A program made the translations under genes and the position numbers. Under the pieces are notes generated by a model. The model had not been told where the DNA came from and made no database searches. It saw nothing but the letters and a program-made list of their open reading frames with translations. This document shows, piece by piece, positions 8,253 through 14,892 of a stretch of DNA of 15,657 nt; the stretch's first letter is position 1, and each line of letters opens with the position of its first letter. Source of the DNA: an uncultured Candidatus Saccharibacteria bacterium (GTDB lineage Bacteria; Patescibacteria; Saccharimonadia; Saccharimonadales; 2-12-FULL-41-12); the NCBI GenBank assembly GCA_946478995.1, contig CAMLDK010000013.1, positions 1 through 15,657 of the forward strand. The letters run 5' to 3'.

Positions 8253-9014
8253 ATGAGCGAATTAGATTTTGAACGAAATGCACAAAAGTCATTTGCAGAA
8301 GGTTGGGTTAAGGAATATACAGGTAGACCGATCGCCGTAGTGGCCAGCGAAGGTTATTGGCAGATTCCCGAGGATTCACAGGATAAAGAAGAACCACAGC
8401 AAATTGCAGTTTCTGCAGAAAGACACTACAGTCTTGGAATAATCGCTGCTGGCGAAGTGAAAGTAGAAGAAGCCGGCATTGTTGTGCCGGTTGAGGGATT
8501 CGTTACGTGGGATTCAAGCACTCCTTACGTTCAAGATTTACAAAGTAGGTTTGATTGGGGTCTTGAGTGGTTTGATGCCGAAGTATCTGCCGGAGAGGGC
8601 GGCTTAATCCTTCCGCGTATAAAGGATCCTAAAGATCCAGAGCGGGCATGGGACTTTGGGTCATTTGGTGAGGTTCGAGTACCTACCAACGGAAAGACCT
8701 TAGGTCTTCATCGCGGTATGACTGTCGAGGGTAGTGATACAGTACCCGGTGGTACAATTACAGATACGTTTGCGGAAGTTGATATTTCGGTAAATGCTGA
8801 GGTGGGCGGTAACTCTGGAAGCCGGTACATAATCACAGGTATATATCATCGCGACGAGCTTTGGAGAAGGATTACAGCCGGAGATGCCTCTGCCTTAGAG
8901 GAAGCGTCTGACCCAAAGTTGAAAAAAGCGGCCGAAAAAGCCGCAAAACAAGACTATAAGCGTAATCCGCCAAAAAAAGAGCCAGAGTACGATCCCTGGG
9001 ATCCTTTGGCTTAA
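8253..9014 (+). CDS. Hypothetical protein, 253 residues, cytosolic
   Basis: I do not recognise this family. The frame is a long clean ORF with its own promoter upstream. No signal peptide or membrane segment is visible. Residues 1-40 are mixed and charged. Residues 50-200 alternate short hydrophobic and glycine-rich stretches, as expected for a beta-rich fold (for example IAVSAERHYSLGIIAAGEV, VVPVEGFVTW, EVRVPTNGKTLGL, GSRYIITGIYHRDELW). Residues 206-234 look like a charged Ala/Lys/Glu helix. The last 20 residues are Pro- and Lys-rich and probably disordered, ending EYDPWDPLA. There are no cysteines. It stands convergent to aroC, with only 23 bases between the two stop codons. Codon choice is less biased than in the ribosomal genes next to it, as expected for an accessory gene. 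A role in regulation or binding would be a guess. Confidence 0.75.
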   Translation: MSELDFERNAQKSFAEGWVKEYTGRPIAVVASEGYWQIPEDSQDKEEPQQIAVSAERHYSLGIIAAGEVKVEEAGIVVPVEGFVTWDSSTPYVQDLQSRFDWGLEWFDAEVSAGEGGLILPRIKDPKDPERAWDFGSFGEVRVPTNGKTLGLHRGMTVEGSDTVPGGTITDTFAEVDISVNAEVGGNSGSRYIITGIYHRDELWRRITAGDASALEEASDPKLKKAAEKAAKQDYKRNPPKKEPEYDPWDPLA

Positions 9015-9048: not shown

Positions 9049-10123
9049 GGGATTTATGCCGCAGATAATGGTCCATTATGACCAAGGCGCTCATGGCATC
9101 GACTATCGGAATGGCGCGGGGGAGTACGCACGGGTCGTGCCTACCGGTAGCCTCTAGCTCGACTTCATTATTATCCAGGTCAACCGAATGCTGTTTTTTA
9201 GCAATGGTTGACACCGGTTTTATCGCAACTCTAAAGTAAATATCTTCTCCTGTTGAAATACCGCCTAAGGTACCACCGGCAAAATTTGTCCGAGTGTGGA
9301 TCTTGCCTGATTCATCTTTATAAAATTCGTCGTTGTGCTCGCTGCCACGCATGGAAACCCCGGCAAACCCGGATCCTATCTCAAAGCCCTTGACGGCATT
9401 AATAGACAGCATAGCTTTGCCTAAATCGGAATTTATCTTGTCGAAAACCGGCTCGCCTAGGCCTACCGGGCAATTTTTAATGACACCGAAAACTACGCCG
9501 CCGATTGAATCGTCGTCAGCTTTGACTTGTTCGATAAGCTTTATCATCTGGTTTGCGGCAGTTTCATCCGGACAGCGGACTATGTTTGACTCGATCATTC
9601 CCATGGTCACCGTCTTGTAGTCGATATCGGTTGAAATATCTCCTACTTTTTGAACATAGCTTAATATTTCTATCCCAAGCTTTTCTTTTAGGTATTTCTT
9701 GGCGATTGCTCCTGCGGCAACCCTGGCTAACGTTTCCCGAGCCGAAGCCCTGCCCGATCCGCGCCAGTCGCGGATGCCATACTTCTGCTGGTAAGTAAAA
9801 TCAGCATGTCCCGGCCTATATAATTTTTTGAGATTGTCATAGTCTTCCGGCCGGATGTCTTTATTATGGGCAAGTAGCAGTATCGGCGTTCCTGTCGTCA
9901 CGCCCTCATAAATACCGGATAGGATAGATACTTCATCCTGTTCTTTTCTAGGAGTAGTTATACTGCTTTGTCCGGGTTTGCGTCTGTCCAGCTCCTTTTG
10001 GATCTCTGCTTCGGTTATCTTAATTCCGGGAGGACAGCCGTCTATCACACAGCCGACACCGCCGCCGTGCGATTCGCCGAAGGTGGTTATTCTAAAAAGT
10101 TGCCCGAAGCTATTTCCTGCCAT
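9038..10123 (-). CDS. aroC: Chorismate synthase
   Basis: The enzyme converts EPSP to chorismate, the last shared step to aromatic amino acids and folate, and requires reduced FMN. Length is normal (361 residues). All three family signatures are present: [19 protein letters not shown] near the N-terminus (His19 and His106 match the two essential histidines, the second in RPGHADFTY), [20 protein letters not shown] (122-141), and [20 protein letters not shown] (328-347). [13 protein letters not shown] (283-295) is also typical. The ATG at 10123 overlaps the end of aroD by 14 bases, and AAAGGA lies just upstream on the minus strand, so translation is probably coupled. It is the last gene of the aro operon and meets a convergent hypothetical gene. 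Confidence 0.97.
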
Positions 10124-10793
10124 TAAGTTGTTCCTTTAAAAATTTTTCATATTCTGCGCGCGTTAATTGCCCCGGCGCGCTTGAATCTTCTTTTTTCTCT
10201 GTTATAAATGTTAACTCATTTCCCCACAAAGCGCCATAAAGCCTGGTGACAAGGCCGTCTTCTCCCATACCGAGGATTATGTGTTTTTTACCTTGGGATT
10301 TCATCTCAAGCATTATCTTAAGCAGCAAATAAGCATCTGACTTGTTGTTGCAGAAAGTAGATATTTTGGCGACTTCAGGTCTGCAGACGGCTATATCCTG
10401 TAGGATTTTATACAGTTCGTTTTCCGCCGGAGTTTCCTCGTAATTATGATAGGAAATAATACGATTAAGCCTCAACTCCCCCGATCTTTTAATCAGCTCT
10501 GCCTGGTCGTAAACATCCATATCTACCAGGCAGTCTTTCTCGTCAAATATTTTTATCAGCTCTGCCTGCTCTTTGACTTTGAGCTTAGGCGTCTCTAAAT
10601 TTTTCCGGCGAAACACGAATACAAGCCTGCCAGGGTATTCATTTAGAAGATTTGATAAGAATTCCGCGTGCAAACCCTGAATATAGTCCAGCCAGATCTC
10701 AAAATAGCTATAAGACTTTTCATGTGCTTCGATCTCAGCCAGCATCTCGTCTTCAGTCGCCTTGATGAGAGGCAGGCAGTAATTATTTTTCAT
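10110..10793 (-). CDS. aroD: 3-dehydroquinate dehydratase, type I (divergent active site)
   Basis: Type I DHQ dehydratase forms 3-dehydroshikimate through a Schiff base. The frame is open further upstream, but the extra residues are only the shifted reading of aroE. The ATG at 10791-10793 gives a protein beginning [17 protein letters not shown], which fits the family; this yields 227 residues and an 11-base overlap with aroE. Visible catalytic features are [12 protein letters not shown] with His116, EVAKISTF with the Schiff-base Lys143, [12 protein letters not shown] (173-184, substrate-binding Arg184) and SSAPGQL with Gln209. The first strand normally reads E-x-R-x-D, but here it is FEIWLD, so Trp34 replaces the substrate-contacting Arg. 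The usual R-S-x-x-E-G-G segment reads FRRKNLET. The catalytic His and Lys are kept, so activity is likely, but the substrate pocket is unusual. Confidence 0.9.
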
Positions 10794-11610
10794 CCAGATA
10801 CTCCGTAAGCGCCTGGCGCATGGCTTGTTCGGGAGCGTCCCGGCCTGTAAATAACTTGAATTGGGCAAAACCTTGGTAAAGCAGCATCTCCGTACCCGGA
10901 ATTGTCTTTGCCCCGGCCTTTTCGGCTTCGCTGAGCAAGCGGGTTTTAAGCGGGGAATATACCGCGTCAAAAACAATCTGTTTTTCATGCAAATTTGCTG
11001 TATATACCGGCGTATCATCCGTGTCCATGCCGATTGAGGTAGTGTTGCAGATTATATCGGCATTTTTGATTCCGTCTTGGTCGCCCAGCGATTTAAATTC
11101 ACAGTTAAAGCGAGCCGCTAATACCCTTGCTTTTTCTAAGCTGCGGTTGTAAATCGTTACTTTGCAGCCGGCCTTGACCAGTCCGTAAACAAAAGCTTTG
11201 CCTGCTCCGCCCGCGCCGATTACTGCGGCTTTTGACCCTTTCAAACCCCGTAATTTTGCCAATGGCTCGGTGGCTCCCAGCCAGTCGGTGTTATATCCGT
11301 GCAAGATTCCGTCTTTATTAACTACCGTATTAATGGCGCCGATCTCTTTAGCCGTTTCATCTATTTCATCTAAGTATTGCATTATGTTTTCTTTGTGGGG
11401 GATGGTGCAGCTTATACCGGCTACATTGTCATTTCGTATTTTTTGCATGAAAAATTCTAGATCTTCCGGCTTCAAATTGACGGCTATATATTCGTATTCA
11501 TCCTCAATACCCAGAGCTTTATAGCCGGCATCATGAATGATAGGCGAAAGCGAATGCTCGACCGGATCGCCTATGACCATACATGTTTTTTTATCTTTTT
11601 CGCTCATCAT
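10783..11610 (-). CDS. aroE: Shikimate dehydrogenase (NADP+)
   Basis: The enzyme reduces 3-dehydroshikimate to shikimate. Full length (275 residues). The N-terminal shikimate-binding domain has GDPVEHSLSPIIHDAGY (14-30) and SCTIPHKENI with the catalytic Lys73. INTVVN (93-98) and GYNTDWLG with the catalytic Asp109 follow. The Rossmann domain shows GAGGAGKA (132-139), then NRS at 155-157 in the position that usually selects NADP. NTTSIGM (189-195) and PGTEMLLYQGFAQFKLFTG (238-256) complete the family pattern. The start at 11610 overlaps the aroA-aroK stop by 4 bases (ATGA); a second ATG directly follows at 11607 and is equally possible. Coupled translation from the fusion gene is expected. Confidence 0.96.
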   Translation of the reverse strand: MMSEKDKKTCMVIGDPVEHSLSPIIHDAGYKALGIEDEYEYIAVNLKPEDLEFFMQKIRNDNVAGISCTIPHKENIMQYLDEIDETAKEIGAINTVVNKDGILHGYNTDWLGATEPLAKLRGLKGSKAAVIGAGGAGKAFVYGLVKAGCKVTIYNRSLEKARVLAARFNCEFKSLGDQDGIKNADIICNTTSIGMDTDDTPVYTANLHEKQIVFDAVYSPLKTRLLSEAEKAGAKTIPGTEMLLYQGFAQFKLFTGRDAPEQAMRQALTEYLDEK

Positions 11611-13319
11611 TTCAACTTTTCCATTATCTCATTAACTACCTGTCCGGGGCTAATAGTCGAAGTATCGATTATAAAGTCTGCCGCCTCATAGAACTTGTCT
11701 TTTCGTTCAGCATATATGGATTCAATCTCTTTTATCAGCGTTTTTTCTTTAGTCAGCGCCGGCCGGTTCGGGTCGCTTGCCGTTCTTGCTTCCATAACCT
11801 TAATATCAGCTCTGAGGAAAATACAGGTCGAGTTACTCTTCAGCAGGGATATATTCTCATCGCGCAGGACAATTCCGCCCCCGCTGGAAATAACGGTATT
11901 TTCCTCGTCGGCTATGGATCTGATTGCTTCGGATTCTATGTCTCGAAAATATTCCCAGCCTTTTGATGCGACTATTTCCGGGACTGATTTATTCTCGCGT
12001 TCGACTATAAGGTCGTCTAATTCTATGAATCTCTTTTGCAGTTTCTCTGCCAGCTTGCGTCCGGTAGTTGATTTGCCGCTGCCACGCATGCCGATAAGTA
12101 GAATATTGCCCGGCTTGGATTCGCTCATTTTAACCTCTGTGATTTTACTCAGCTCATCCCAAAAATCCGGAAAGGTTTTGCTCACGACTTGTGGCCTTAA
12201 AATTTTCATACCGCCAGCTTTCATACCGGCGACCGCAAAGCTCATGGCGATACGGTGGTCATTATAAGTATCAATCGTTGCCGGCTTTGGCTTTCCGCCG
12301 TAAATCGTAAGCGTATCTTCAGCCGACTCGGTGTTGATACCCATCTTGGCAAGCTCATTTTCTAGCGCTTTCACCCGTTCGGTCTCTTTTACACGAAGCG
12401 ATTTCACGCCATTTATCACTGTTTTTCCTTCTCTGAAGGCCGCCAATACGGCTAAAGTCATCGCCTGGTCGGGGAAATCTTGCGCGTTAATGAAGCGAGC
12501 CTCGTCACTACGGGAGTCCATCCCTCCGTGCCACTCGCCGGTTTTTATGAGATCTACAAACTGCTTGTCTGCCTGTTTTGAGCCCAAGTTTAGATTTTCT
12601 ACTTTTATATTGCTTCCGGTAAGTGCGTTTATAGCGTAAAAGTAAGAAGCGCTGGAATAATCGCCCTCGATCTTGTATTCGTTAGTCCGTTCATATCTTT
12701 GTGGTTTGACGCTGTATTTCTGATATTTTCCGTTCTGGACATCGACTCCAAAGCTGCTCATTATATCCAAAGTCATGTCTACATAAGGCTTGGAAATCAA
12801 CTCTCCCTCAACATCGATTTCCAGGCCGTTTTTAAGTACTGGAGCAATTAGAAGCAGGGCAGAGAGATATTGGCTGCTTGTCCCTCCCGATACAGTCACT
12901 TTCTCTCCGGATAAACTGCCGCTGGACACCGCAATCGGCAAAAAGCCCTCTTGTCCAAGATACTCGATCACGGCTCCCAGCTGGCGCAAAGCTTTCACTA
13001 AGTCGGCGATAGGGCGCTTAAGCAGGCCGGGCTCGCCGGATATCTCTTGCCTTCCCGGCGCAATACAGGCCAAAGCCGTTATAAAACGGGCGGTTATTCC
13101 CGATTCTCCGGCAGAAAGTTTACTTTCTCCGGCTTTAATATCCTTTAGGCAGTCTTGCATAGCTTTGGTGTCCTGGCTCTCGAGCAGTCCGTTCAATTCT
13201 GGCGGGGAATCGCATAGCGCAGCTATGAATAAGGCGCGCAAACTATAGCTCTTGGAGCCCGGTACCGACACCTGTGCGTCAGACGGAAGCTTCAATTCTG
13301 ATATCTCGGCGATTTTCAT
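11607..13319 (-). CDS. aroA-aroK: Bifunctional EPSP synthase / shikimate kinase fusion (AroA-AroK)
   Basis: One 570-residue polypeptide joins two shikimate-pathway enzymes. Residues 1 to about 393 are EPSP synthase (5-enolpyruvylshikimate-3-phosphate synthase): PGSKSYSLRAL (20-30), AGESGITAR (70-78), GGTSSQYLSALLL (145-157), EGDYSSASYF (218-227), DFPDQAMTLAVLAAF with Asp284, LRVKETERVKA (308-318) and DTYNDHRIAMSFAVAGM (350-366). After a short linker, residues about 404-570 are shikimate kinase: Walker A GMRGSGKST (410-418), the Asp pair in FIELDD (431-436), FRDIE with Arg459, SSGGG (478-482) and the lid NRPAL (518-522). The kinase makes shikimate 3-phosphate, the substrate of the other half, with the intermediate enzyme order reversed along the chain. 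The Met398 codon (12126-12128) follows an AGAGGT sequence with a 4-base gap, so a separate kinase could also be made. In the EPSP synthase site, Ile75 and Phe79 replace the usual Thr and Pro. It is the first gene of the aro operon. Confidence 0.95.
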   Translation of the reverse strand: MKIAEISELKLPSDAQVSVPGSKSYSLRALFIAALCDSPPELNGLLESQDTKAMQDCLKDIKAGESKLSAGESGITARFITALACIAPGRQEISGEPGLLKRPIADLVKALRQLGAVIEYLGQEGFLPIAVSSGSLSGEKVTVSGGTSSQYLSALLLIAPVLKNGLEIDVEGELISKPYVDMTLDIMSSFGVDVQNGKYQKYSVKPQRYERTNEYKIEGDYSSASYFYAINALTGSNIKVENLNLGSKQADKQFVDLIKTGEWHGGMDSRSDEARFINAQDFPDQAMTLAVLAAFREGKTVINGVKSLRVKETERVKALENELAKMGINTESAEDTLTIYGGKPKPATIDTYNDHRIAMSFAVAGMKAGGMKILRPQVVSKTFPDFWDELSKITEVKMSESKPGNILLIGMRGSGKSTTGRKLAEKLQKRFIELDDLIVERENKSVPEIVASKGWEYFRDIESEAIRSIADEENTVISSGGGIVLRDENISLLKSNSTCIFLRADIKVMEARTASDPNRPALTKEKTLIKEIESIYAERKDKFYEAADFIIDTSTISPGQVVNEIMEKLK

Positions 13320-13348
13320 TTACAAATAATATCCATTTCTGCTATTAT
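13319..13348 (+). promoter_or_regulatory. Candidate promoter for the cysH leader (TTTACA - 18 bp - TATTAT)
   Basis: TTTACA (13319-13324) and TATTAT (13343-13348) each match the consensus in five of six bases, with 18 bases between. The predicted start is near 13355, giving an RNA of about 150 bases to the terminator at 13507. The -35 box touches the aroA-aroK start codon. Confidence 0.4.
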
Positions 13349-13349
13349 A
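13344..13349 (-). promoter_or_regulatory. Candidate -10 box for the aro operon
   Basis: On the minus strand a perfect TATAAT lies 24 bases before the aroA-aroK ATG. The predicted transcript start is near 13337, leaving a leader of about 18 bases. No good -35 box is seen at the usual distance, and no clear Shine-Dalgarno precedes the ATG. The box overlaps a plus-strand TATTAT by five bases, so divergent transcription from this spot would be mutually exclusive. Confidence 0.4.
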
Positions 13350-13358
13350 TCGGAAGTT

Positions 13359-13445
13359 ATGAATAACAGTTTAGCAGTACTCCCGGTTTCAACGTCAATG
13401 TGCCACCGCACGTCCCACGCTGGCTGTACTATGCTCATGTGTTAA
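13359..13445 (+). CDS. Putative Cys/Met-rich leader peptide of cysH (28 residues)
   Basis: A short frame, ATG 13359 to TAA 13443-13445, begins MNNSLAVLPVSTSMCHRTSH and ends A-G-C-T-M-L-M-C. Of 28 residues, three are Cys (15, 23, 28) and four are Met (1, 14, 25, 27); six of these seven lie in the last 15 codons and the final codon is Cys. The cysH-like protein next door has one Cys in 234 residues. The frame ends 25 bases before an intrinsic terminator that precedes cysH. A GGAAG lies 2 bases before the ATG, which is tight. If transcription starts near 13355, the message would be almost leaderless. Interpreted as an attenuation leader that senses charged tRNA-Cys or tRNA-Met. The pattern is seen directly, but that it is translated is inference. 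Confidence 0.45.
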   Translation: MNNSLAVLPVSTSMCHRTSHAGCTMLMC

Positions 13446-13448
13446 CCG
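13373..13448 (+). ncRNA. Structured leader RNA upstream of cysH (attenuator core)
   Basis: Several helices can form in the predicted leader transcript. AGCAGTAC (13373-13380) pairs with GTAC-TA-TGCT (13426-13435), leaving a two-base bulge. GTGC (13400-13403) pairs with GCAC (13408-13411) around a CACC loop. CGGTT (13384-13388) can pair with AACCG (13444-13448), which would make a pseudoknot across the first stem. CTCCC (13380-13384) copies the left arm of the downstream terminator and could compete for its right arm. I recognise no known riboswitch class here. The folding was judged by eye. Confidence 0.35.
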
Positions 13449-13467
13449 ATTAGAACTCAATAAAAAT

Positions 13468-13507
13468 AAGCCTCCCGAGCAAGCCACGGCCGCAAGGGAG
13501 GTTTTTT
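13468..13507 (+). terminator. Intrinsic terminator between the leader and cysH
   Basis: CCTCCC (13471-13476) pairs with GGGAGG (13496-13501), extended outward by a G-T wobble and two A-T pairs. The 19-base loop contains a small GC-CACG-GC hairpin (13483-13490). TTTTTT (13502-13507) follows directly. No plus-strand gene other than the 28-codon frame ends upstream, so it would terminate a leader RNA before cysH. The opposite strand is also T-rich after the stem, so it may work in both directions. Confidence 0.75.
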
Positions 13508-13541
13508 AATACTCAATGAAATTAATCCAAGGAGAAGAAAA

Positions 13542-14246
13542 ATGTGGAAAGATGAGAACAAGCAAGATAAAGCAAAGAAAATAATAAGACAAGCATACGA
13601 TCGGTACGGGAAAGATCTGTATGCCTTATCCAGCTTCGGCGCGGACGCGGGCACGCTTTTGGACCTTATATATAAGAGCGGGCTGAAGATTCCGGTCATT
13701 ACCATAGATACCGGGTTTTTGTTTCCGGAAACACATCTTTACAAATTTACTTTACAGAACAAGTTCGGGTTCAGAACTATAACTTACGGGCCTTATGATG
13801 ACGAGGTAGAGCAGATTGCCTTTGACCGGTTATGGGAAAAAGATATAGACGCTTACCACCGTACGGTCAAAATAGATCCGCTTAAGCGGGCAATAGAAGA
13901 ACTTGGGGTCGGCGCCCTCCTCCAAGGCGTCAGGGCCGACCAGACCCAAGCCAGGGCTAACCTTGAGGTAATTGAGCAAGGCCAGTTCGGCGAAGACCGC
14001 ATCCACCCCTTGCTTGATTGGGATAAGGAAGAGGTAGAAGACTATCTGGTGAAAGAAAATATCCCTAGGAACCTGCTGGTTTATGAAGGCTATGAGTCCA
14101 TAGGCGACTGGACGACTACGGTGCCCGGTCTGGGGCGGTCAGGACGCCAGCTGGGCATGACCAACGGCTGCGGACTGGTCGCCGGCGAGGGCGGTAATTT
14201 AGTACGGCCAAGGCTTCAAACTATTAACGATAGCTTTTTAATATAG
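13542..14246 (+). CDS. cysH: PAPS reductase-like protein (CysH family, no Fe-S cysteine pair)
   Basis: The protein (234 residues) belongs to the PAPS/APS reductase branch of the adenosine-nucleotide alpha-hydrolase fold. PAPS reductase releases sulfite from phosphoadenylyl sulfate using thioredoxin. Family features are the PP-loop LSSFGADAGTLLDLI (29-43), ITIDTGFLFPET (53-64), KIDPLKRAIEELG (110-122), LLQGVRADQTQARANL (126-141), HPLLDWDKEEVEDYL (155-169) and YEGYESIGDWTTT (181-193). The usual tail motif ECG(L/I)H appears as GCGLV, keeping Cys210, the only cysteine in the protein; the neighbouring Glu and His are lost. The Cys-Cys pair that binds 4Fe-4S in APS reductases reads Tyr105-His106, so a PAPS-type or altered enzyme is expected. 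No ATP sulfurylase, APS kinase or sulfite reductase gene is nearby. AAGGAG (13529-13534) is a good ribosome binding site. A Cys/Met-rich leader and terminator lie upstream. Confidence 0.88.
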   Translation: MWKDENKQDKAKKIIRQAYDRYGKDLYALSSFGADAGTLLDLIYKSGLKIPVITIDTGFLFPETHLYKFTLQNKFGFRTITYGPYDDEVEQIAFDRLWEKDIDAYHRTVKIDPLKRAIEELGVGALLQGVRADQTQARANLEVIEQGQFGEDRIHPLLDWDKEEVEDYLVKENIPRNLLVYEGYESIGDWTTTVPGLGRSGRQLGMTNGCGLVAGEGGNLVRPRLQTINDSFLI

Positions 14247-14283: not shown

Positions 14284-14892
14284 ATGAGTCAAGGAGTGCA
14301 ACCTGATCCGGCTGAGGTAGTGGGAAATATAATGGCTGATAGAGAGCCTGTAGGGTACGAAGGAAATATCCCTGGGGTGGAGGGGGATGAAGCATTTGAG
14401 CTAAAGCCGCCCATTGTTAATTATCATGATGACGGGATCGTAGAAACTATAGTTGCTGCACAGAGGGACAGCCAGGAAGGAATGGTGATTCCCCTAGGAA
14501 GAGTTTTAACCACGCCTGACACTATCACTACATTTTGGTCCGTAGGCAACCACTGGGATGACTCTACTAGCACTGTGGTTGGAGGTGTCAACCAAGGGAT
14601 AATTTTTGAGGAAAAAAATCCAACAAGAGCGTATTACGGCTTTCAGCAAGATACTCGTATTCCTCCGCGAGAAAGCGCGAGGAACCTTGCTAGCTTGCGA
14701 TCAGATGCTAGAAAGATGGTGTTATCGCATTTAGGTGTAGAAGTTGCAGCAGAAGCGACAGAGGGAAAACCGCCAAGGAAAAGAATGTTGGGGCGGATAA
14801 GGATAAGAAGACCCTCACCAGTTGTCGAGGAAACTGTTCAGAGCAGCAGTGGCGCCTCTGTATCTACTGAAGCAAGCATGGCAGAAGCATGA
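14284..14892 (+). CDS. Hypothetical protein, 202 residues, basic and Ser-rich C-terminus
   Basis: I do not recognise this family. It starts 37 bases after cysH without a visible ribosome binding site. Residues 1-45 are acidic and Gly/Pro-rich and likely flexible. Residues 46-150 may form a small globular domain (IVNYHDDGIVETIVAAQ, MVIPLGRVLTTPDTITTFW, VVGGVNQGIIFEEKNPTRAYYGF, then a helix NLASLRSDARKMVLSHL). Residues 161-177 are strongly basic (GKPPRKRMLGRIRIRRP), and 178-202 are Ser/Ala/Glu-rich, so a nucleic-acid- or ribosome-binding tail is possible but unproven. There are no cysteines, signal peptide or membrane segments. Arginine codons in the tail are mostly AGA/AGG, unlike the CGN-rich ribosomal genes nearby. 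It ends with TGA, 117 bases before tuf. Confidence 0.7.
   Translation: MSQGVQPDPAEVVGNIMADREPVGYEGNIPGVEGDEAFELKPPIVNYHDDGIVETIVAAQRDSQEGMVIPLGRVLTTPDTITTFWSVGNHWDDSTSTVVGGVNQGIIFEEKNPTRAYYGFQQDTRIPPRESARNLASLRSDARKMVLSHLGVEVAAEATEGKPPRKRMLGRIRIRRPSPVVEETVQSSSGASVSTEASMAEA

Follow-up and report, generated by a model that had tools for sequence, protein, structure and literature searches.

The window analysed here is a stretch of 15,657 nucleotides from an uncultured Candidatus Saccharibacteria bacterium (GenBank assembly GCA_946478995.1, contig CAMLDK010000013.1), and it holds a cysH gene that is separated by a gap of 222 bases from the divergent fusion gene aroA-aroK. A promoter-like site, a short open reading frame (ORF) and an intrinsic terminator lie in this gap (Table 1), and our subject is whether they form an attenuator of cysH that senses sulfur amino acids through a leader peptide. 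A sequence-only reading had described a frame with cysteine (Cys) and methionine (Met) codons, a terminator after its stop codon and a cysH-like gene behind both, and had proposed ribosome-stalling attenuation from this layout. The frame with its Cys and Met positions was confirmed, as were the terminator and the order of short ORF, terminator and sulfur gene, to which the promoter-like site can now be added. The gene itself is a cysH of the 3'-phosphoadenosine 5'-phosphosulfate (PAPS) reductase type: its product matches PF01507 (PAPS_reduct) with 125.4 bits against a cut-off of 22.5, and aligns with E. coli PAPS reductase through the C-terminal CGL motif. With the NCBIfam model NF002537 it scores 153.9 bits, marginally under the cut-off of 154, and other NCBIfam cysH models also stay under their cut-offs.

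Table 1. Features of the gap upstream of cysH and of the two genes that border it.
Feature	Position	Strand	Basis or remarks
Promoter-like site TTTACA-18-TATTAT, TG before -10	13319..13348	+	consensus match, 10/12 positions
Leader frame, 28 codons	13359..13445	+	translation MNNSLAVLPVSTSMCHRTSHAGCTMLMC, then stop; Cys 15, 23, 28; Met 1, 14, 25, 27
Candidate antiterminator segment	13410..13436	+	predicted pairing (13410-13427, 13432-13436) with terminator right half, RNA to ~13400 masked
Intrinsic terminator, 9-pair stem, CCTCCC/GGGAGG core, six T at 13502-13507	13468..13507	+	-18.6 kcal/mol
cysH Shine-Dalgarno AAGGAG	13529..13534	+	sequence
cysH, PAPS reductase type	13542..14246	+	no iron-sulfur cysteines; CGL catalytic cysteine motif present
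aroA-aroK fusion gene, divergent from cysH	11607..13319	-	probable -10 TATAAT at 13349-13344

Comparison with dinucleotide shuffles indicates that the hairpin at 13468-13507 with its six T is a real terminator, since none of 500 shuffles was equally stable for 13465-13510 (z -3.65) and only 3 of 500 were for 13468-13507 (z -3.23). A loose scan of the plus strand for hairpins followed by T gave eight matches, of which this one is the strongest and alone in lying outside genes; a simple terminator finder with a loop limit of 8 returned nothing in 13000-14000. From the end of the leader stop codon, the distance is 22 nt to the stem and 25 nt to the GC core of the stem. On the minus-strand side of the hairpin (13445-13507), the T-rich TTATTTTTATT was seen by eye a few bases on, and the hairpin could be active in both directions; this by-eye candidate is not listed in the minus-strand scan.

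Upstream of cysH, the promoter-like site is the only one on the plus strand within the scanned region 13000-14000. Its extended -10 element occupies 13340-13348, and the -10 ends 10 bases before the leader ATG. From the consensus match, the RNA start would be expected at about 13355, just a few bases upstream of the ATG, which would place this codon nearly at the RNA 5' end; the ATG is preceded by just a weak Shine-Dalgarno-like GGAAG, and the frame would be nearly leaderless if the predicted promoter is used. The site is not significant by itself, as three promoter-like sites were found in 13000-14000 and 1.2 were expected from shuffles. Its TATTAT, on the side of the leader and cysH, overlaps at 13343-13349 with the minus-strand TATAAT of aroA-aroK. 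The region scan detected no promoter-like site in the 34 bases between the T-run of the terminator and the cysH ATG, and for this reason cysH seems to depend on read-through.

Because promoter-like site, frame, terminator and cysH follow one another in this order, we consider it likely that cysH is attenuated by the terminator, whatever the means. A contrary explanation holds that the element does not regulate cysH: the gap would give rise to a short plus-strand RNA, ended by the terminator and perhaps generated incidentally by the overlapping divergent -10 elements, the ORF would be there by chance, and cysH would possess a promoter that was not recognised. The overlap of the two -10 elements, the T-rich stretch noted by eye beside the hairpin and a promoter count of just 3 against 1.2 are compatible with such a transcript. 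This explanation has to contend with a spacer that is devoid of a promoter-like site and with the good Shine-Dalgarno sequence of cysH, and we judge it to be unlikely.

Elsewhere among bacteria, sulfur riboswitches and T-boxes act on sulfur genes through termination, a precedent that speaks for a known element of this kind governing the terminator. The sequence makes this very improbable: no Rfam family is matched at gathering score anywhere in the window, the four matches returned for 13250-13600 concern unrelated small RNAs or motifs with E values of 0.23-5.3, all below their gathering scores, and the T-box sequence TGGNACC is absent from the gap.

The Cys content of the leader frame is moderately improbable by chance, and Cys accounts for 0.66% of the residues encoded by the window genes (34 of 5116). 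When 13349-13467 was shuffled, an ORF of 12-45 codons with at least three Cys appeared in 206 of 5000 sequences, one that additionally had at least two Cys within the last six codons in 37, and one with at least seven Cys plus Met in none; shuffling the whole gap gave 130, 12 and 1 of 5000 for the same three properties. Among the 76 ATG-started ORFs of 15-45 codons on both strands of the window, three have at least three Cys, two have at least seven Cys plus Met, and one, the leader frame alone, has at least two Cys among its last six codons, although these thresholds flatter the frame because they were set after it had been seen.

Distant cysH genes, for which 17 aligned CysH proteins served as the query (best 80 of 140 relatives, 30-39% identity), provided a further comparison. 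Within the 250 nt before 74 cysH loci of other phyla, corresponding to 73 distinct genes (L055 and L082 hold the identical gene), an ORF with at least three Cys occurs in seven loci (six genes), and one with two of these in the last six codons in none. None of the best 80 of 140 relatives is titled Saccharibacteria, two titles naming no phylum, and a contig search with the window CysH alone produced 26 pattern matches with no relative among them. Viral contigs yielded one distant locus and none with CysH, AroA-AroK or RpoC, and an RpoC search of 98 relatives of a Chloroflexota genome plus 18 genomes of the loci found nothing near the 82-96% of Saccharimonadales RpoC.

From the observed ORF, terminator and gene identity, we infer promoter use, translation, stalling, antitermination and the signal as follows. 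RNA polymerase would start near 13355, transcribe the short ORF and by default halt at the terminator, leaving little cysH message. If charged tRNA-Cys (or tRNA-Met) became scarce, translation of the leader would slow down and polymerase would read through into cysH. With the upstream RNA masked, 13410-13436 would be released for pairing with the terminator's right half; the decisive position of the ribosome would be around codons 11-15, which include Met14-Cys15, rather than at the terminal Cys and Met codons.

The folding calculation, in which the probability of the terminator stem was computed for RNA free from a position p to 13507, bears on this proposal. The probability is 0.93-0.96 for nearly all p, drops to 0.29-0.53 for p = 13401-13410 and stands at 0.84 for 13411. 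Among 120 shuffled leaders, 4 dip to 0.35 or less, and 2 do so together with a default terminator probability of at least 0.9. With a ribosome edge located 13 bases past the first base of the A-site codon, as is usual, switching needs a stall at codons 11-13 (Ser11-Thr12-Ser13); a tighter edge of 9 bases moves the switching zone to codons 12-15, with Met14 and Cys15 inside it.

Several results weigh against the peptide as sensor. Under the 13-base edge, the terminator is predicted at 0.83 for a stall at Met14, a slight effect, and at 0.95 for one at Cys15, no effect; a stall at Cys23, Met25, Met27 or Cys28 has no predicted effect on the terminator. The terminal C-T-M-L-M-C, stressed by the sequence-only reading, was rejected as the decisive stall site, since the terminator stays at 0.93-0.95 for A-site codons 16-29, compared with 0.95 when no ribosome is present. 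The Cys codons are scattered and none is adjacent to another. The alternative pairing would have to beat the local hairpin, because it uses the late-made 3' half of the terminator. We rejected the idea that the leader forms a stable hairpin with a regulatory role (z -1.24, 55 of 500 shuffles; whole leader z -1.34, 25 of 200), and likewise direct pairing of upstream RNA with the terminator arms, for which shuffles were equally good in 188 of 300 cases (5' arm) and 65 of 300 (3' arm). Finally, a Cys-cluster detector found nothing in the 450 nt before the window cysH, as against 30 of 30 in the Anaerolineae loci described below, a comparison that is partly circular because the detector asks for three close Cys and defines the Anaerolineae set.

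The scatter of the Cys codons, and a switching zone in register with them only under the tighter edge, make us hold back on the peptide; we regard a Cys/Met leader peptide as a possible sensor of the attenuation to which we give somewhat less than even credence. Of the stalling attenuation proposed earlier, the layout stood; sensing could not be established, given the scatter of the Cys codons and a predicted terminator of 0.95 under a terminal stall. This scatter, together with the lack of a predicted effect of terminal-codon stalling, the strength of the terminator and the frequency of ORFs with at least three Cys in shuffled leaders (206 of 5000), would fit a terminator that attenuates cysH in response to something other than a peptide. 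The sensor might then be an undescribed RNA element or an RNA-binding protein, or the terminator might be a fixed partial one that keeps expression low, with the ORF a product of chance. We think this rather unlikely, in view of a leader fold that is not unusual (z -1.24) and of Rfam results that comprise no family at gathering score in the window and, for the gap, unrelated sub-threshold matches.

The proposal of a Cys/Met leader peptide gains a context from leaders in other bacteria. Scanning upstream of the distant cysH genes revealed Cys-cluster leaders in four Chloroflexota loci (L055, L066, L071, L080) and in a Gemmatimonadales metagenome-assembled genome (MAG; L076). In four of these five loci a terminator was found by the scan, and that of L066 was seen in the sequence and folded. 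The Gemmatimonadales leader, which reads ...AAACCCMTGN..., precedes cysH together with a strong terminator of -24.3 kcal/mol. In L066, a TTGACA-17-TATAAG was seen by eye 8 bases upstream of the ATG that opens a Cys-run leader (MLASMCAMSCCCTAS...), and this leader may also be nearly leaderless.

A larger set was assembled from the order of the L071 genome, here referred to as Anaerolineae, where cysH was matched at 1e-60 in 74 of 151 genomes and the best 30 loci (L157-L186) were taken. All 30 contain, within 450 nt ahead of cysH, at least two Cys-cluster frames, and in all 30 a terminator follows at least one of them; these are related sequences and not 30 independent events. Counted by frame, 53 of 61 are followed by a terminator; the eight that lack one by the cut-off were dropped, and the third L185 frame among the 53 kept is probably spurious. 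The controls gave a Cys cluster in 21 of 300 shuffles and in none of 30 reverse strands. The frames stand in tandem about 60-410 nt before cysH, as exemplified by MFRNCCSTCCCQ... and ...HVCCCCCTEPGRLGYPMLA..., an arrangement shared by L071 and L080, and are apparent tandem cysteine attenuators. In L071 and L080, GGATTATCCG of the second leader was noticed by eye to be the exact reverse complement of CGGATAATCC of the terminator.

Drawing on the phylum as a whole, we obtained 400 genomes, 127 of them with cysH, and examined 70 of the listed matches. Placement by tblastn succeeded for 32 of these 70 loci; for 38 of the loci L117-L156 the coding sequence present was too short for this step, and all 40 of that series were placed by hand, two of them being also among the 32. 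The 32 aligned loci include four with a Cys cluster, one of which is paired with a terminator, versus 12 of 320 for shuffled sequence and 2 of 32 for the reverse strand. Ten of the 40 hand-placed loci (L136, L140, L142, L145-L149, L152 and L153) have a common Cys-rich frame ending in CTCACIRGVVV; a terminator comes next in seven of the ten by a loose cut-off, and the true start of the frame is uncertain. Taken together, these comparisons indicate that Cys leaders before cysH are recurrent yet far from universal, and such leaders seem to be real outside Actinobacteria.

The Chloroflexota and Gemmatimonadales leaders also served to gauge the folding method. Among seven hand-picked leader-terminator pairs, two (L071b and L080b, with the 13-base edge) reach a terminator probability of at most 0.31 when the stall is at the last Cys codons or next to them, and L076 falls just to 0.7; the other four are unresponsive at their Cys codons. 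Of the 53 Anaerolineae pairs, 17 fall to at most 0.5 for a stall at a Cys of the cluster, 11 of them from a default terminator of at least 0.9. The method is insensitive, and its failure to respond at Cys23 and Cys28 of the leader frame is weak evidence against the proposal.

The Anaerolineae loci share with the window the sequence of short Cys frame, terminator and cysH, but they have at least two frames per locus, each of them Cys-clustered, in contrast to the single frame without a cluster found here. In its widest form, the proposal would be that a near-leaderless Cys/Met leader and a terminator sense sulfur amino acids for cysH in Saccharibacteria, as part of a wider class of cysH attenuators that occur in tandem in Chloroflexota; put this broadly, we regard it as doubtful. 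Gene regulation in Patescibacteria is poorly known. If the proposal is true, a reduced lineage tunes its sulfur assimilation to its own charged tRNA by a ribosome-based cysteine sensor, and the cysteine attenuator at cysH is a fresh case of an already known regulatory kind. Whatever the verdict on the window, the tandem Cys leaders of Anaerolineae make the general idea testable.

Attenuator leaders of the classical trp/his type have at least two regulatory codons, and sensitivity drops when such codons make up little of the control region (PMC1183508). The window resembles this type in its leader frame, terminator and downstream pathway gene: three Cys are scattered over 28 codons, and an intrinsic terminator (13468-13507) lies between frame and gene. 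It differs in that its regulatory codons are sparse and the coupling of an antiterminator to them is putative. In Actinobacteria, candidate Cys leaders with no obvious terminators have been described for Mycobacterium, P. acnes and B. longum (PMC1262725), Cys-rich upstream ORFs are known in mycobacteria (PMC4633059), and cysteine-responsive attenuation by leaderless ORFs has been reported (Canestrari 2020, as cited in PMC13236596 and PMC9031893). Like these mycobacterial polycysteine ORFs, the window has, before a sulfur-assimilation gene, a short Cys frame that would sit at the RNA 5' end or close to it; they, however, carry contiguous Cys runs and no obvious terminator, whereas the window has scattered Cys (15, 23, 28) and a terminator. 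The frame may act in the manner of a Cys attenuator, but we do not file it in the polycysteine leader family, because contiguous or clustered Cys were sought and are absent.

A close published layout is the uORFC-8-2 motif before cysS of Rhodobacterales, a terminator-type Cys attenuator for which ribosome-mediated attenuation has been proposed (PMC8632094). It has in common with the window a short AUG frame with Cys codons, an intrinsic terminator and a cysteine-related gene, and the window departs from it in that codons 14-15 are Met-Cys, the gene is cysH and not cysS, and a single example is at hand. Leader peptides also arise outside Proteobacteria and Actinobacteria, for instance before hisS in bacilli, in passages of PMC2965389 that do not mention cysH. 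The earlier suggestion that a Cys/Met leader would be new in this type of organism needs qualifying: the actinobacterial (PMC1262725, PMC4633059) and Rhodobacterales cysS (PMC8632094) leaders were already in print, and for Saccharibacteria or Patescibacteria our literature search found no cysteine leader peptide. The search likewise found no cysteine leader-peptide attenuation in Chloroflexi; both are weak negatives, as subscription journals were thinly covered.

The relatives of CysH listed with an organism name are two Candidatus Saccharimonadales and one distant Phycisphaerae, and those of RpoC are three Saccharimonadales and one each of Saccharibacteria, Patescibacteria and Verrucomicrobiae; from these named relatives, we assign the source to the Saccharimonadales type. 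Among the protein relatives, P0007 has a CysH that is 76% identical, and P0062 an RpoC that is 95% identical over residues 1-450. The possibility that CysH came from a phage was rejected, as the phage collection gave three distant records. In four close CysH relatives (P0013, P0014, P0016, P0017) the C-terminal CGL cysteine is absent, or the end is cut or altered, which suggests decay or another role.

The window opens with the end of rpoB, followed by rpoC, rpsL, rpsG, fusA and an ORF without assigned function. A minus-strand block of aroC, aroD, aroE and the fused aroA-aroK comes next, and then, on the plus strand, cysH, an unassigned ORF and tuf. The genes rpoB, rpoC, rpsL, rpsG, fusA, aroE and tuf were named by reading their translations, rpoC also by its protein relatives. 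The aro-cysH cluster between fusA and tuf is flanked by two ORFs, at 8253-9014 and 14284-14892, for which neither Pfam nor NCBIfam gives a match at E 0.001. The listed aroD frame (10110-11018) and aroE share 236 bases, and the Pfam domain of aroD starts only at residue 81, so that the true start of aroD probably lies further in.
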